From a virus: a stretch of DNA of 38,853 nt. Within the stretch, counting starts at the first letter, position 1; every line of letters begins with the position of its first letter. Where the stretch lies: positions 1 to 38,853 of the IMG/VR virus record IMGVR_UViG_3300030450_002719; one strand, given 5' to 3'. The notes below the pieces were generated by a model. It was not told where the DNA came from. It saw only the letters and a list, made by a program, of their open reading frames with translations, and ran no database searches. The position numbers and the translations under genes are program-made. Positions 33,218 through 38,354 of the stretch are shown one piece after another.

Positions 33218-33511
33218 ATGGCCCTTAAGCACGGAAATAAAACTTACCTCCAAATTCTCTTAGACCCTCATCGAGCTAAGTTAGTTCAAGAGAGAGCAAA
33301 GGCCCAAGAGATCCGAGCAACTGCCTGGATCAGAAATGCTGTCTACAAGGAGCTGGAGCGCGAATTACCTGCTTCAACTTATAAAGAGGCCGAAGCGAAA
33401 GACGAAGCTGTATGGCGAGAGTCAGTACGGCGAAGAGTCGAAGGCCGAACTACAAACCCTGATACACCTGATGACCCGTCTGACGAACAACCCCAGTGTT
33501 CCATGCCCTGA
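33218..33511 (+). CDS. Ribbon-helix-helix DNA-binding protein (97 aa)
   Basis: Probable transcription regulator. Residues 8-47 read NKTYLQILLDPHRAKLVQER then AKAQEIRATAWIRNAVYKEL, a beta strand followed by two helices with 'ATAWIRNAVY' as the second helix, as in CopG/Arc-type proteins common in cyanobacteria. The rest is a charged tail with RRRVEGRTTNPDTPDDPSDE. It may regulate its own near-leaderless transcript. The 3' end overlaps the zinc-ribbon gene by 41 bases in another frame. Confidence 0.75.
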   Translation: MALKHGNKTYLQILLDPHRAKLVQERAKAQEIRATAWIRNAVYKELERELPASTYKEAEAKDEAVWRESVRRRVEGRTTNPDTPDDPSDEQPQCSMP

Positions 33512-33740
33512 TTGCGGTCTATTTTGCAATCGTGTTATCTGTACTCGAAGGGAAGATACAGGTGTAATTATTAGACGAAGACACTGTATAGAGTGTGATC
33601 ACAGGTGGTACACAATGCAGTACCCGGAAGTGGCTACAAAGGATTACCCAAAGAAGAGAGGCAGAAAATCTAATAAGAAGGTTTCTGTTTACTCAAAAGT
33701 AAGTCCCGTTCCATCTCTAGGAATCCAATTCGGTTCATAG
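33471..33740 (+). CDS. NrdR-like zinc-ribbon protein (89 aa)
   Basis: The zinc ribbon matches the first domain of NrdR, the repressor of ribonucleotide reductase: PCPDCGLFCNRVICTRREDT, then GVIIRRRHCIECDHRWYTMQ, i.e. CPxC ... CxxC with 'RRRxxC..C..RWYT'. The ATP-cone that follows in NrdR is missing; instead there is a basic tail (PKKRGRKSNKKVSVYSKV). A viral stand-alone zinc ribbon could act as a DNA-binding modulator. The start is ATG 33471; the frame is open back to 33336, and an earlier start is possible. Confidence 0.72.
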   Translation: MTRLTNNPSVPCPDCGLFCNRVICTRREDTGVIIRRRHCIECDHRWYTMQYPEVATKDYPKKRGRKSNKKVSVYSKVSPVPSLGIQFGS

Positions 33741-33906
33741 CGTTTTCCAGAAGTTTGGATTGATATCGAGTTTGCTTAAGGAGACCTATACAAACACGCG
33801 CAACATGTTCCGCATCTTCATGTTTCTCTAATAGATGGGCTTCTTGCTCTATTTCTAAAGTTTCTTTGTCCGTAAACTTTACTTTTTCCCAGTCTTGAAA
33901 GTTCAT
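33670..33906 (-). CDS. Coiled-coil hypothetical protein (78 aa)
   Basis: MNFQDWEKVKFTDKETLEIE, then QEAHLLEKHEDAEHVARVCI and GLLKQTRYQSKLLENAMNRI: an extended helical, coiled-coil-like chain. It ends convergent to the zinc-ribbon gene with a 71-base overlap. Its start overlaps the previous stop (ATGA). No function recognised. Last gene of a short minus operon. Confidence 0.65.
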   Translation of the reverse strand: MNFQDWEKVKFTDKETLEIEQEAHLLEKHEDAEHVARVCIGLLKQTRYQSKLLENAMNRIGFLEMERDLLLSKQKPSY

Positions 33907-34115
33907 TTATCACTTACCAGACGACTAGGATGTTTCCTTTTTCCTCCCCATTTCCACGCTATATACCAGTCAGCATCACTCCTCAGAATTGAGGGGTCTG
34001 CTTTCTGAATAGCGTCTTGTAGTTCAGAAAGACTTCCTAACTGATGGGGATCACCGGGATCGAAGTGTTCAAAGAAATCTCTTATGTAGAGGGGGTGGGT
34101 TGGGGGTCTTTGCAT
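33903..34115 (-). CDS. Hypothetical protein (70 aa)
   Basis: MQRPPTHPLYIRDFFEHFDP, then GDPHQLGSLSELQDAIQKAD and PSILRSDADWYIAWKWGGKR. Aromatic-rich with a helical middle. It overlaps its upstream gene by 34 bases and the downstream ATG by 4. No family recognised. The codons used are like the neighbours. Confidence 0.62.
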   Translation of the reverse strand: MQRPPTHPLYIRDFFEHFDPGDPHQLGSLSELQDAIQKADPSILRSDADWYIAWKWGGKRKHPSRLVSDK

Positions 34116-34267
34116 AACTTTTCGGAATATTTAGCAGCAAGCCCTGTATAAGTCCCCGCTTGTGGATGATCAGGTTTGTCACGACCATCCTGTTTAAACC
34201 AAATGTCCATTTGCTTAACACGCCTTGCATTTTCATCACGCCAGGCTTTGTCCATTACAACGTCCAT
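34082..34267 (-). CDS. Small hypothetical protein (61 aa)
   Basis: MDVVMDKAWRDENARRVKQM, then DIWFKQDGRDKPDHPQAGTY and TGLAAKYSEKLCKDPQPTPST. The ATG overlaps the stop of the upstream membrane-type gene (TAATG). Polar, without membrane segments. Not recognised. Confidence 0.62.
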   Translation of the reverse strand: MDVVMDKAWRDENARRVKQMDIWFKQDGRDKPDHPQAGTYTGLAAKYSEKLCKDPQPTPST

Positions 34268-34422
34268 TAGGTATCAGTATCGGAAGATTTGGGCTTGAGC
34301 TTTTTAATACTATCTAAAACGAGAGCAACTATTCCGTTCTGCTTTAGGGCACTCGCTCCAATCAACTCTGAGACTAGGGCGAACGCAGCCCAGAATATAG
34401 GACTCGTTAATAGTTCATCCAT
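34267..34422 (-). CDS. Small hydrophobic protein (51 aa)
   Basis: MDELLTSPIFWAAFALVSEL, then IGASALKQNGIVALVLDSIK and a basic-polar tail KLKPKSSDTDT. Two short hydrophobic segments (residues 8-26 and 30-38) could insert in a membrane; holin-like size but no certain match. It begins a minus-strand operon of four genes joined by overlaps. Start ATG 34422; a second in-frame ATG is absent. Confidence 0.68.
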   Translation of the reverse strand: MDELLTSPIFWAAFALVSELIGASALKQNGIVALVLDSIKKLKPKSSDTDT

Positions 34423-34460
34423 AGTAAACACCAGAAGTCATCCAGACAATACTCTGGATC

Positions 34461-34639: not shown

Positions 34640-34816
34640 TTACTTCCTCCAATCTCTCCTAGGAGCAGGTTGTAACTTTGCTACTTCCTTTTCTAGAGCG
34701 TTGATTCTGTGGAAGAGTTCTCGGATGTCGCGCTCACGTCTATTAGAGACGTTTGCCAACAGCATTAGAAAAGCAGAAGCGCCCGCGCCTATTATTGCGG
34801 CCCAAGTAGATTCCAT
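34640..34816 (-). CDS. Small membrane-anchored coiled-coil protein (58 aa)
   Basis: MESTWAAIIGAGASAFLMLL gives one membrane segment (residues 5-22); then NVSNRRERDIRELFHRINAL and EKEVAKLQPAPRRDWRK form a basic, coiled-coil-like cytoplasmic or periplasmic part. This layout is seen in small phage lysis accessory proteins (spanin- or holin-regulator-like), but no sequence family is recognised. Divergent from the plus holin-like gene by 28 bases. Confidence 0.68.
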   Translation of the reverse strand: MESTWAAIIGAGASAFLMLLANVSNRRERDIRELFHRINALEKEVAKLQPAPRRDWRK

Positions 34817-34844: not shown

Positions 34845-35327
34845 ATGGAGGTTATTTTGCCAGACGAGAAACAACCTGAACCTTCAAAACCTGAAGCAAA
34901 ACCCCCTAAAAAGAAAAATGGGGTCATAAATAAACTTCAGGAAATCACTCCTGATAAAGAAGAACAGATCCAAATCATAGGTGTAGCAGTGCGTTTGGGC
35001 ATTGTTATATGGTCAGGATTCTGCCTAACTTTAGCCTATATAGATTTACCTGGATTCCCTAAACAGACCTTCGACCCGACCTTTATTGCTAGTGTTTTTA
35101 CCGGAGCTTTAAGTTCCTTTGGGTTGACAACATCAAAGAGTAAAGGTGGTGGAAACGGAGTCAGCAAGGCTGATCTTGAAAAAATGATGGCTGCTAATCA
35201 GGCTGGTGCTGGTGAACAAATCATTCGCATTCAAACTCCAATCCGTATTCAAGCTCCAGACGGTGGAGAAATTCAACAAGTCGTGCAGGCTCCACCAAAA
35301 CCTCCCGCCCCAAACACAAAAGCATGA
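34845..35327 (+). CDS. Holin-like membrane protein (160 aa)
   Basis: A charged, Pro/Lys-rich N-terminus (KPEAKPPKKKNG) is followed by two hydrophobic segments: IIGVAVRLGIVIWSGFCLTL at about residues 44-64 and FIASVFTGALSSFGL at about 80-94. A Gly-rich linker and a helical/charged part follow, then a Pro-rich end. Two-segment membrane proteins with this shape are common phage holins or membrane anchors. It starts a chain of genes overlapping by 1-4 bases with signal-peptide proteins. The family is not certain. Confidence 0.65.
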   Translation: MEVILPDEKQPEPSKPEAKPPKKKNGVINKLQEITPDKEEQIQIIGVAVRLGIVIWSGFCLTLAYIDLPGFPKQTFDPTFIASVFTGALSSFGLTTSKSKGGGNGVSKADLEKMMAANQAGAGEQIIRIQTPIRIQAPDGGEIQQVVQAPPKPPAPNTKA

Positions 35328-35848
35328 AAAAGTTACTGTTCCTATTACCGCTTGGCTTGGCGGTGGCAATGCCCGTTAATGCCGATATTCGTCACTCCAT
35401 AAAATCCAGTGCAACTATCACTTTGGATCCGGCTTATTCTTCTGCCACAAGAATAGGGTCAACATATTCGGTTTCGGGATCGAATGTGACTCCAAGTAAG
35501 ACGATTTCAGGGACAACAACCTCTGGAGCCATTGGTGGGCTGAACATTGGTTCAGTCACAGCAGGAGTGCCCGCTTTTATAGACACTGACTTCACTGTTA
35601 CCACAGCAGGATCTGCTTTTTCTGCGGTTGAATCGCTGACCCAAGGTGATGCGATCCAATCTGCCACAACTGTTAGTTCTGGTGTCGTGGGCTCACTTCC
35701 TTCTCTTGGTTCTACTGTTACAGGATCAGGCGGAGTTACAGGAGGAACGATTACTTCGCTCACTTCAGGAGTTCATACCTGTGGCGGAACTATGGGTGCT
35801 GGCTCAAGTTGCACGGCAACAAGCATCATAGAAACGCTGGTGGACTGA
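35324..35848 (+). CDS. Secreted/periplasmic protein A (174 aa)
   Basis: Signal peptide MKKLLFLLPLGLAVAMPVNA (cut after Ala20). The mature part is rich in Gly, Ser and Thr: IRHSIKSSATITLDPAYSSA, then RIGSTYSVSGSNVTPSKTIS and GTMGAGSSCTATS near the end with two cysteines. Proteins beginning 'ADIRHSIKSS....LTVD' are ones I recall from picocyanobacteria and their phages, of unknown function. A virion surface, periplasmic or adhesin-like role is possible. It overlaps the holin-like gene by 4 bases and the next peptide by one (TGATG). Confidence 0.8.
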   Translation: MKKLLFLLPLGLAVAMPVNADIRHSIKSSATITLDPAYSSATRIGSTYSVSGSNVTPSKTISGTTTSGAIGGLNIGSVTAGVPAFIDTDFTVTTAGSAFSAVESLTQGDAIQSATTVSSGVVGSLPSLGSTVTGSGGVTGGTITSLTSGVHTCGGTMGAGSSCTATSIIETLVD

Positions 35849-35925
35849 TGTTTGGGCTGACTTTCATAGTAATAATATTCATCCTCTTCCTTATTTGGAG
35901 AGGATTGTCTGATCCAAATGCATGA
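35848..35925 (+). CDS. Tiny membrane peptide (25 aa)
   Basis: ATG 35848 overlaps the stop of protein A; its TGA overlaps the ATG of protein B. The frame encodes MFGLTFIVIIFILFLIWRGL then SDPNA: a single hydrophobic span of about 15 residues. Its exact fit into the chain of overlaps argues that it is translated. It could be a small membrane regulator. Confidence 0.7.
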   Translation: MFGLTFIVIIFILFLIWRGLSDPNA

Positions 35926-36347
35926 AGAAACTATTACTGCTATTAATATTATTAATTCCAGCTAAGGCTGTAGCTGTGCCAGTGGTTCCTAACTTTTCGT
36001 CAGGAACTATGTCGGCTGTCACGCGTACAACAAGTGTGGTTACAGAAACTATATCGTCCCACGATTACAACACAGGCCATACTTACACAATGAATGGGAC
36101 AGGAGTAACAATTAATGGCAATATTTCACCTAGCCCGACAACTACTACCCAAGCAATCGATGGCACTAATTACACATGGACGGGAGCAAATCTCACAACC
36201 AAACCAACGGTAACTCTCACCACCCAAGGGAATCCCTTCCAGTTTGTAGAGAGCTATACAGGCCCAGGGCTCTCGAACATAACGAACATAACTCGAACCA
36301 CAAATATAGAAAGCGTCACAGAAACAACAAGTGTATTCTCGCAGTAA
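35922..36347 (+). CDS. Secreted/periplasmic protein B (141 aa)
   Basis: Signal peptide MKKLLLLLILLIPAKAVA, cut near residue 18. The mature chain is Thr/Ser-rich beta: VPNFSSGTMSAVTRTTSVVT, then ETISSHDYNTGHTYTMNGTG, and the end GNPFQFVESYTGPGLSNITN with TETTSVFSQ. This 'FQ-VE-Y-GPG-SN-T-I-RT--IESVT--TS-FSQ' ending is a family I recall from cyanobacteria and cyanophages, of unknown function. It contains no cysteine. The last 13 bases overlap the next gene in another frame. Confidence 0.82.
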   Translation: MKKLLLLLILLIPAKAVAVPVVPNFSSGTMSAVTRTTSVVTETISSHDYNTGHTYTMNGTGVTINGNISPSPTTTTQAIDGTNYTWTGANLTTKPTVTLTTQGNPFQFVESYTGPGLSNITNITRTTNIESVTETTSVFSQ

Positions 36348-37087
36348 TTTTATTATTACTTAGTCCAACAAAAGTATTAGCCCAAACTTCACAAACAGCC
36401 GCGCCAGTTGCGAATAGTTCAGGCAGCGTAACTAACATGGCTATTCAATCATTACAAGGTAACTTAATACAGAATCAATATGGCGGAAACATAGTCTGTC
36501 AGGGGCCTATGCTCACTTTTTCTCCTTTTTTAACAGACTCACATACGTATAGTAGTCCTAGAGAATATTGGTATGAACAACCCCAATATAATGATGCTGG
36601 TGAGATCACTCACTACACACAGAATAGGACGGGGCAGAAAGATAATATGGCTTTGAACCTCGGGTTTTCAATGACCTTTTCCGTCCCACTAGATAATTCA
36701 CTTCAAAGAAGATGTAAAGAAAGTGTCGATACTCAGATTTCTAGGCAAAAACAATTATTGCAAGATTCTCAACTTAATTGGCATATAGCGAGGTTAAAAA
36801 ACTGTGGGGAATTAAAACTTAAGGGGATAGAGTTCGCACCTTGGTCTCCCTACTTTGAGCTTTGCAAGGATGTAGTCGTGAAAGCGAAGATGGGGCAAGT
36901 CCTGCCACATCGACATCAGACTCCTGCTAAGACCATTTTACCGGAGGGAGATTCCTCTTCTCTCGATAAGCGTTGGTTCTTTTCTGGGATAAATTTGGAG
37001 TTACCACCTTTTTTCCGAGGATCTTCTGAACCCTTGTTAAAACCTGTTTCACGAGGGGTTTTACAATCCTCAGAAGAAAAGGAGTAG
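36335..37087 (+). CDS. Secreted/periplasmic protein C (about 250 aa; start unresolved)
   Basis: The frame opens with a typical signal peptide core, ILAVILLLLSPTKVLAQTSQ, preceded by basic residues (KYRKRHRNNKC). Protein body: SVTNMAIQSLQGNLIQNQYG, then GNIVCQGPMLTFSPFLTDSH, TGQKDNMALNLGFSMTFSVP, LDNSLQRRCKES and IARLKNCGELKLKGIEFAPW, followed by SPYFELCKDV. Four cysteines suggest disulfide bonds. No ATG/GTG/TTG lies just before the signal region: the frame's first ATG is 36176 inside protein B. The start could be a rare ATT at 36335 or another mechanism. I recall related proteins in picocyanobacteria. Confidence 0.72.
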   Translation: MLAVILLLLSPTKVLAQTSQTAAPVANSSGSVTNMAIQSLQGNLIQNQYGGNIVCQGPMLTFSPFLTDSHTYSSPREYWYEQPQYNDAGEITHYTQNRTGQKDNMALNLGFSMTFSVPLDNSLQRRCKESVDTQISRQKQLLQDSQLNWHIARLKNCGELKLKGIEFAPWSPYFELCKDVVVKAKMGQVLPHRHQTPAKTILPEGDSSSLDKRWFFSGINLELPPFFRGSSEPLLKPVSRGVLQSSEEKE

Positions 37088-37658
37088 CTGCTGCGCTAGC
37101 TGTTGCGACGACCGCAATCGTTCCAGTTGTAACTACCTGTGGAACGCTCGGTATTGCATCAACTATTTGCTGAGGGAATGAGACTTCTGAATATTGAGTG
37201 ACACATCTATTTCCTATTAACTGATAACCCGTTATCTCTTTTGTCCCCTTCCCGTCAGGAACCTTGGTGCCAATTTCTGCTGCATCAGGAGGCGGGCAAT
37301 CCGTGCTCTTCGGGGTGGACGGTGGTGGTTCATCTGATGCTGGTGTCTCTGGTTGTTCATATCTTTGCGGTTGCGTCTCTTCTGTAATAACCAGTTCCTC
37401 TGGCGTGTAATCCATTGCGTTGAAGCTTGGTACGCCCCCTGGACAGAGCGTGACATTGCCCTCTGGATCATTCGTAATTAGTGCATCATTCTCATAATCG
37501 CTGCGCCTTGTTTCAACGCAAGGCATCTCAATAATGGGAAACCCTATAGGTACAGAAACAGGAACTTCTGGGGCAGTCAGTATTGGGTAATTAACAATCC
37601 TCGTTTGAATCCCAGGAATGTCTATGTCTTTTATCTGAATACCTTTAATTTCACTCAA
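36927..37658 (-). CDS. Pro-rich envelope-type protein D (243 aa), antisense end
   Basis: N-terminus MSEIKGIQIKDIDIPGIQTR, then IVNYPILTAPEVPVSVPIGF, EGNVTLCPGGVPSFNAMDYT and PEELVITEETQPQRYEQPET; a Pro-rich linker (PASDEPPPSTPKSTDCPPPD) leads to a C-terminal region with a hydrophobic span TGTIAVVATASAAATPFLLR at about 178-197, then a basic end. The 'NYPI...PEV.V.VP.G.P.I..P' and 'DDPKGNVTLC....PSF..MD.TPE' features also occur in cyanophage proteins I recall. It is convergent with protein C and overlaps its last 161 bases. Probably a membrane-attached partner. Confidence 0.75.
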   Translation of the reverse strand: MSEIKGIQIKDIDIPGIQTRIVNYPILTAPEVPVSVPIGFPIIEMPCVETRRSDYENDALITNDPEGNVTLCPGGVPSFNAMDYTPEELVITEETQPQRYEQPETPASDEPPPSTPKSTDCPPPDAAEIGTKVPDGKGTKEITGYQLIGNRCVTQYSEVSFPQQIVDAIPSVPQVVTTGTIAVVATASAAATPFLLRIVKPLVKQVLTRVQKILGKKVVTPNLSQKRTNAYREKRNLPPVKWS

Positions 37659-38106
37659 CTAAAGTACCTCTAGACCTTCTTATGTCTTTTAATTCTTCGA
37701 AGTTTTTCTGCTTTGTCCCTCCGTCATATACCCACGCATAACCTTCCTCTACCATCTCCTCGTTTATTGAACGACTTGCACTACCAACGTATAACCATCC
37801 CAATAATCTGCCATATTTTCCGGTTGCTCCTTTATCCAATTCCGTTCGAATGGTTAAATCGTATCCATCATTAACTGCATCATCCAACTTATCTTCAAGC
37901 CAATAAGTTGCATCTTTACCAAGTTTCTTCTCAATAAGATTTCGAGTACGTTTTTCAGGAGTATCCACACCAGCAACTCGTACCCTCTGCTTTATTGATA
38001 AATCAAAACCTAGATCAATAGTTACATCAATCGTGTCGCCATCTACAACACGATCCACTTTACTAACTTTGTAATTCCAACAACTGACTCTGCTCGGAGG
38101 TTTCAT
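37651..38106 (-). CDS. Thermonuclease (SNase-like, 151 aa)
   Basis: Staphylococcal nuclease-like domain: DRVVDGDTIDVTIDLG with D22 and D24, RVRVAGVDTPEKRTRN with the conserved Asp and following Arg/Glu region, and KYGRLLGWLYVG with the Arg of the active site; the C-terminal YAWVYDGGTKQKN also fits. Phages use such nucleases for host DNA degradation or packaging. No signal peptide is visible, so it would act in the cell. Small overlaps with protein D (8 bases) show co-transcription. Confidence 0.9.
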   Translation of the reverse strand: MKPPSRVSCWNYKVSKVDRVVDGDTIDVTIDLGFDLSIKQRVRVAGVDTPEKRTRNLIEKKLGKDATYWLEDKLDDAVNDGYDLTIRTELDKGATGKYGRLLGWLYVGSASRSINEEMVEEGYAWVYDGGTKQKNFEELKDIRRSRGTLVE

Positions 38107-38114
38107 GACTTCTG

Positions 38115-38354
38115 TTAAAAGGGAGATCTTAGTGACTTTTGTGTTGCTGATCCAGGGCTTTTGGTTGGCAATGCTGGCCCAGTTAGTCCGCCTGGAATCG
38201 GGACATTTTGCATTACAGATTCAATAACCTGCTGTTTAACTTTCTCTTGGTTCTCTTCATTGGTTAACCATAAATAACCAAAAACCGTTCCTCCCGTTAA
38301 TGCAGCCACCAGTAAAAAGGAGACTACACTTATAGTGTTAATGATTTTTTGCAT
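38115..38354 (-). CDS. Small membrane protein with Gly/Pro end (79 aa)
   Basis: MQKIINTISVVSFLLVAALT and GGTVFGYLWLTNEENQEKVK: one membrane span at residues about 5-28, then a short acidic/basic helix (QQVIESVMQNVPIP) and a Gly/Pro/Ser-rich end. Proteins beginning 'MKKIINTISVVSF' are frequent in picocyanobacterial phages; function unknown. Its ATG shares bases with the opposite-strand gene at 38353. Confidence 0.72.
   Translation of the reverse strand: MQKIINTISVVSFLLVAALTGGTVFGYLWLTNEENQEKVKQQVIESVMQNVPIPGGLTGPALPTKSPGSATQKSLRSPF

Follow-up and report, generated by a model that had tools for sequence, protein, structure and literature searches.

What does a chain of tightly packed genes for exported and membrane proteins do in a phage of marine picocyanobacteria, and is it the property of one genome or a unit shared by many? 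The window analysed here is a linear virus record of 38,853 bases from a siphovirus-like marine cyanophage, which codes for a JAB-NlpC/P60 tail protein, a tail-collar protein and a family A DNA polymerase. From 34.8 to 37.7 kb, the plus strand carries the genes H, A, m, B and C, and gene D is located on the minus strand. A first-pass annotation had singled out this locus as a candidate for an undescribed system. The comparisons reported below show that the chain is genuine and of far greater age than the window, and they add the conserved dual coding of two genes, the core present in T7-like phages and the link across phage lineages. The cassette, made up of four to six proteins that are exported or reside in membranes, recurs in otherwise unrelated phages of marine picocyanobacteria, which are the most abundant phototrophs in the ocean.

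Organisation of the cassette

The holin-like protein H (160 amino acids) is encoded at 34845-35327 on the plus strand, and its gene overlaps by 4 bases with A (35324-35848, plus strand), which codes for a secreted Ser/Thr/Gly-rich protein. A overlaps by 1 base with the gene for m, a single-span membrane peptide of 25 amino acids (35848-35925, plus strand), and m by 4 bases with B (35922-36347, plus strand), the gene for a secreted beta protein. Up to this point the chain agrees with the overlaps of 1-13 bases described earlier, but for B and C the overlap is 172 bases and not 13. The exported protein C is encoded at 36176-37087 on the plus strand. The gene for the Pro-rich protein D, located on the minus strand at 36927-37658, indeed converges on the chain, and the tails of C and D overlap by 161 bases (36927-37087). 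With the exception of the start of C, the coordinates of the first-pass annotation could be kept.

Dual coding of B and C

A 13-base overlap would place the start of C at 36335, where the codon is ATT. We rejected this start in favour of a conserved ATG at 36176, which lies inside B and out of frame, so that 172 bases (36176-36347, plus strand) are common to both genes. The ATG is located 169 bases before the stop codon of B in almost all siphovirus-like relatives and 163 bases before it in most myoviruses; two relatives use GTG or TTG, and the upstream stop of the C frame varies in position. In a set of 34 copies with less than 90% identity, 33 have an open C frame across the overlap, while 1.3 would be expected from synonymous-codon shuffles of each B; the third frame is open in none of the 34. 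The shuffles rule out that the overlap is a by-product of a conserved B, and since the C frame is open so much more often than expected, we conclude from these alignments that the B/C overlap is genuine, conserved dual coding. The sole copy without an open C frame is that of P-SSP7, whose B/C overlap is shorter. Identity at fourfold sites is 46% in the overlap and 39% outside, a modest rise in a weak test.

The overlap encodes a basic N-terminal stretch of C ahead of its signal sequence: the protein starts with a basic extension of about 52 amino acids, followed by the signal sequence at residues 53-69 and the mature domain from position 36383 onwards. Four cysteines in mature C are invariant in the family alignment, as expected for a protein that would reside in an oxidising compartment.

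Protein families and predicted structures

H matches the Pfam family PF20048 (DUF6450; E-value 9e-28, 96.3 bits at a cut-off of 25). It contains hydrophobic spans at about residues 44-60 and 76-92, and its P-SSP7 homologue is annotated with two TM regions. B belongs to PF19847 (DUF6322; E-value 2.7e-32, 111.7 bits at a cut-off of 30.6), and its C-terminal motif is strongly conserved in the alignment. A reaches 23.5 bits against DUF6322, which is under the cut-off of 30.6; judged by its sequence, it is a distant paralogue of B. The signal peptides noticed earlier in A and B are Sec-type sequences, C has one as well, and they are found across clades. The four cysteines that had been seen in D, as in C, are likewise invariant within its family, but D has neither a signal peptide nor a lipobox. 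At its C-terminus D carries a hydrophobic span and then a cationic helix-like stretch.

The statement that none of the cassette genes has a known activity was borne out, with all Pfam and PHROG matches being to families without a function. None of the PHROG families (2714/721 for H, 564 for A, 650 for B, 848/1755 for C and 570 for D) has an assigned function, and in the annotation of T4-like cyanophages A, B, C and D are T4-GC 237, 236, 235 and 234 and H is T4-GC 218. The clusters T4-GC 234-237 and 218 (annotation of the genomes of Sullivan et al. 2010), DUF6450 and DUF6322 represent the same genes in the same order, listed as hypotheticals. A literature search found no paper naming DUF6450, DUF6322 or these T4-GC numbers, and no functional experiment on the cassette genes. 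The genes are thus not new, having been filed before as hypothetical gene clusters of cyanophages, but in the literature found they have not been described as a system.

The AlphaFold2 model of C (pLDDT 74, pTM 0.46) contains long beta strands and a helix of 42 residues, with a start and a tail of low confidence. In the model of B, which like that of C is of moderate confidence (pLDDT 78.5, pTM 0.42), N- and C-terminal strands of 24-25 residues extend across most of the chain ends in the manner of a long hairpin. A Foldseek search of the PDB with both models gave no match with an E-value under 0.001, a PDB sequence search yielded nothing meaningful, and the best VIA-align Z-scores (4.4 for C and 4.2 for B) are not significant. 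Stems of ring-shaped pores, built as beta hairpins, make up many of the weak structural matches, perhaps for no other reason than a common hairpin arrangement. With no significant match to solved structures, we derived no function from the fold and did not use the pore-stem matches as evidence.

Distribution and gene order

Among 50,697 phage records, C was found in 444, H in 423, B in 412 and D in 408, and the records with H, B, C and D are all from Synechococcus or Prochlorococcus or are marine single-cell or fosmid records. Gene order was compared in loci picked for encoding C (60 siphovirus-like, 80 AG-345-A17-like, 80 myovirus and 80 T7-like loci). About 300 loci from four clades show the same order, a recurrence that excludes chance as an explanation. 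H-A-B-C converge on D in the 60 siphovirus-like and the 80 AG-345-A17-like loci, some of which are clipped by contig ends. The 80 myovirus loci have mostly A-B-C converging on D, followed by a further small membrane protein, x, and H, and in the 80 T7-like loci the core consists of a D-like protein, H, B and C. The D-like protein is present in 75 of these 80 T7-like loci and the terminase small subunit in 72. Represented by P-SSP7 ORF042, the D-like protein matches the C-terminus of D in a profile comparison (E-value 4.4e-6, probability 87%) and has the C-terminal span and the cationic stretch of D without the cysteine domain. S-TIM5, a separate myovirus lineage, has A-B-C beside Hsp20 and H elsewhere in the genome, and in S-SM1 the cassette genes are oriented against nearly all neighbours over about 90 kb.

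As the presence of C had been the criterion for the gene-order loci, we turned to ten chosen phage genomes for an independent test of co-occurrence. H, B and C occur together in four phages (S-TIM5, Syn9, P-HM1 and P-SSP7) and all missing in six (S-SZBM1, P60, Syn5, PSS2, S-CBS4 and S-PM2). The linkage suspected from the window is found in other cyanophages, and in these ten genomes the three genes occur in an all-or-none manner. The numbers of phage records with H, B, C and D, which differ little from each other, agree with this.

A single scan of bacterial and archaeal genome contigs revealed 16 marine contigs with cassette genes, phage-like in look, and no homologue on an evident host chromosome. 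A host origin of the cassette was dismissed because these contigs resemble phage sequence. The contigs L310-L325, in which cassette genes were seen, are assigned to Bacteroidetes, archaea and other bacteria, one of them being a 188 kb contig of a Nonlabens isolate assembly; they look like cyanophage contamination or co-sorted phages.

A candidate late lysis module

A major route by which carbon is set free in the ocean is the lysis of Prochlorococcus and Synechococcus by their phages. Kongari et al. listed these phages as spanin-less and posed the opening of the outer membrane as a question (PMC6139136); P60, Syn5, PSS2, S-CBS4 and S-PM2 are likewise on the list, and a fragile host membrane was put forward in the survey as a possible, simple explanation (PMC6139136). 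We propose that the cassette is a late lysis module replacing spanins in phages of marine Synechococcus and Prochlorococcus, and we give this proposal an even chance of being correct. It is based on genomic position, late-promoter timing and export signals. In P-SSP7 the cassette genes are located between the tail fibre and the terminase genes, and in T7 an interval of the same kind holds the holin 17.5 and the spanins 18.5/18.7. P60 has no cassette and carries its endolysin in that slot, with gp39 two genes on. In T4-like phages and in this window, the cassette does not adjoin an endolysin. Of 71 myovirus loci, 29 carry the motif NATAAATA, reported as the cyanomyovirus late promoter (PMC2984593), 52-71 bases upstream of the A domain, with about 2.3 expected, although the loci are related and do not represent 29 independent events. 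Lysis had been one of several functions considered in the first-pass annotation, and with the slot, the late motif and the spanin-less listing it is now the one with the most support.

In such a lysis module, H would act as a holin or holin partner and permeabilise the inner membrane. B, its paralogue A and C would leave the cytoplasm via Sec and, after oxidation and assembly in the periplasm, would jointly act on the outer membrane, doing the job of the Rz/Rz1 spanins without a lipoprotein anchor. D would join the complex at a membrane via its C-terminal span and cationic stretch. A complex at the cell envelope had been deduced from the tight coupling of the genes; gene order and signal sequences argue for a conserved envelope-directed unit, while the complex itself, like holin activity, direct interactions, outer-membrane disruption and the membrane side of D, is something we infer. 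It is possible, but doubtful, that several phage lineages infecting the same marine cyanobacteria have in this cassette a system that disrupts the outer membrane without a lipoprotein and has no relationship to spanins, in which the overlapping-frame proteins B and C would form a beta-rich periplasmic complex triggered by H.

The cassette resembles two-component spanins (lambda Rz/Rz1, P2 LysB/LysC, T7 18.5/18.7) in having two envelope-targeted proteins encoded in overlapping frames by late genes, and in T7-like cyanophages it occupies the same genomic interval as T7 18.5/18.7. The out-of-frame overlap of B and C is a feature that is frequent, albeit not required, in two-component spanins. Unlike these, however, the cassette lacks a lipoprotein, codes for cleavable-type signal sequences on both B and C, includes a beta-rich protein (B) as well as two extra partners (A and D), and shows no match to a spanin family. 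An open reading frame with a lipobox within 3 kb of C was found in none of the 60 siphovirus-like, 80 myovirus and 80 AG-345 loci, and only sporadically, in two of 80, in podovirus loci. As no lipoprotein is encoded nearby, a classical spanin is not present. In two-component spanins, one partner is a type II protein of the inner membrane with a periplasmic helix, a part for which neither C nor x is a clear counterpart: C has a hydrophobic N-terminal segment and, in the prediction, the 42-residue helix, but its signal looks cleavable, and x has the topology but is short. The combination of an N-terminal lipobox and a C-terminal span seen in unimolecular spanins was not found, with D having the span only and A, B and C having no lipobox.

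H is comparable to T7 gp17.5, being in T7-like cyanophages a small membrane protein in the holin interval. A small membrane protein in a lysis locus is what is expected of a holin, the locus being called a lysis slot here by analogy to T7 and P60. In contrast to holins such as T7 gp17.5, the putative holin H has no holin family match, and in T4-like phages it is located on the D side and not with A-B-C.

The cassette cannot be the only answer to the missing spanins, since P60, Syn5, PSS2, S-CBS4 and S-PM2 are spanin-less yet have no cassette. It is probably the means by which many picocyanobacterial phages open the outer envelope of their hosts, a step to which no genes had been assigned in these phages. 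The cassette provides an assayable function for gene clusters in several hundred phage records, and since the candidate module is conserved and its minimal core defined, the breach of the outer membrane becomes directly testable.

Alternative functions

It is rather unlikely that A-D are minor virion or tail components, such as fibre tips or a surface layer, which would be synthesised late and either exported or added to the particle as it is released. The late-type position, after the tail fibres in P-SSP7, would agree with this, as would the predicted long beta hairpin of B, a shape common in fibres, and the presence of phage collar proteins among the weak structural matches. Sec signal peptides, however, are unexpected on virion parts of tailed phages, which are assembled in the cytoplasm, and in the S-TIM5 annotation A-D are "hypothetical" while other genes are "virion structural". 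The earlier suggestion of a virion surface layer thus gained no positive evidence. A virion protein list has been published for S-SZBM1, but this phage has no cassette.

Superinfection exclusion or envelope shielding, also among the earlier suggestions, would mean that the exported proteins alter the host surface and block injection by other phages. A set of exported proteins plus a membrane protein, common to phages that are not related but are rivals for the same hosts, might serve this purpose. The late-promoter motifs and the late-cluster position fit poorly with it, since T4 Imm and other exclusion proteins have their effect early, and exclusion has no need for a holin-like partner; we regard it as improbable. 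We give little credence to an outer-membrane channel or secretion complex serving the metabolism of the infected cell by nutrient uptake or export. Cyanophages carry nutrient genes such as pstS, the strands in the C model look amphipathic, and pore stems of beta barrels are among the weak structural matches of B and C (Z no higher than 4.2), but these matches are not significant, the timing is late, and the single genome-contig scan detected no homologue on an evident host chromosome.

Small peptides and neighbouring genes

Peptide m was found in this window alone and is therefore ruled out as a part of the core; having been counted as a member of the system at first, it turned out to be neither essential nor conserved in relatives. 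In about 18 siphovirus-like relatives (including the loci L022, L024, L048 and L007), the gap between A and B contains an unrelated, conserved single-span membrane peptide of 31 residues with the pattern MHVPxIV...NFLMWKHYMDIHR, which was not found in the other clades. The presence of a 25- or a 31-residue peptide in the same slot looks like an exchange.

Gene x (38115-38354, minus strand; PHROG 568) encodes a small single-span membrane protein and is located close to the cassette in 156 of 310 loci, usually near D. Its PHROG family is labelled "plasmid stability", yet x is a membrane protein of small size and accompanies the cassette; this name has no support here and seems mistaken. The SNase-like endonuclease gene E (37651-38106, minus strand; PF00565, E-value 3.4e-14) shares 8 bases with the beginning of D. 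It has 40 matches in the fetched loci and occurs near the cassette in some of them, on either side, as an occasional neighbour outside the core. In Syn9, an SNase-like endonuclease adjoins the large terminase gene instead.

Upstream of the cassette, an open reading frame at 33336-33740 encodes a Zn-ribbon like that of the NrdR N-terminus, slightly under the Pfam cut-off, and v (33903-34115) was rejected as an endolysin (E-value of only 0.022). The protein z (34640-34816, minus strand), with one span and a short coiled-coil-like stretch, is encoded divergently from H in siphovirus-like relatives and was discarded as a homologue of P60 gp38 because the two do not align. The small membrane protein w (34267-34431, minus strand; PHROG 22542/15106), seen among the fetched loci in siphovirus-like ones only, is related to P60 gp39 (BLASTP E-value 1e-8), the gene of which follows the P60 endolysin and precedes its terminase small subunit.
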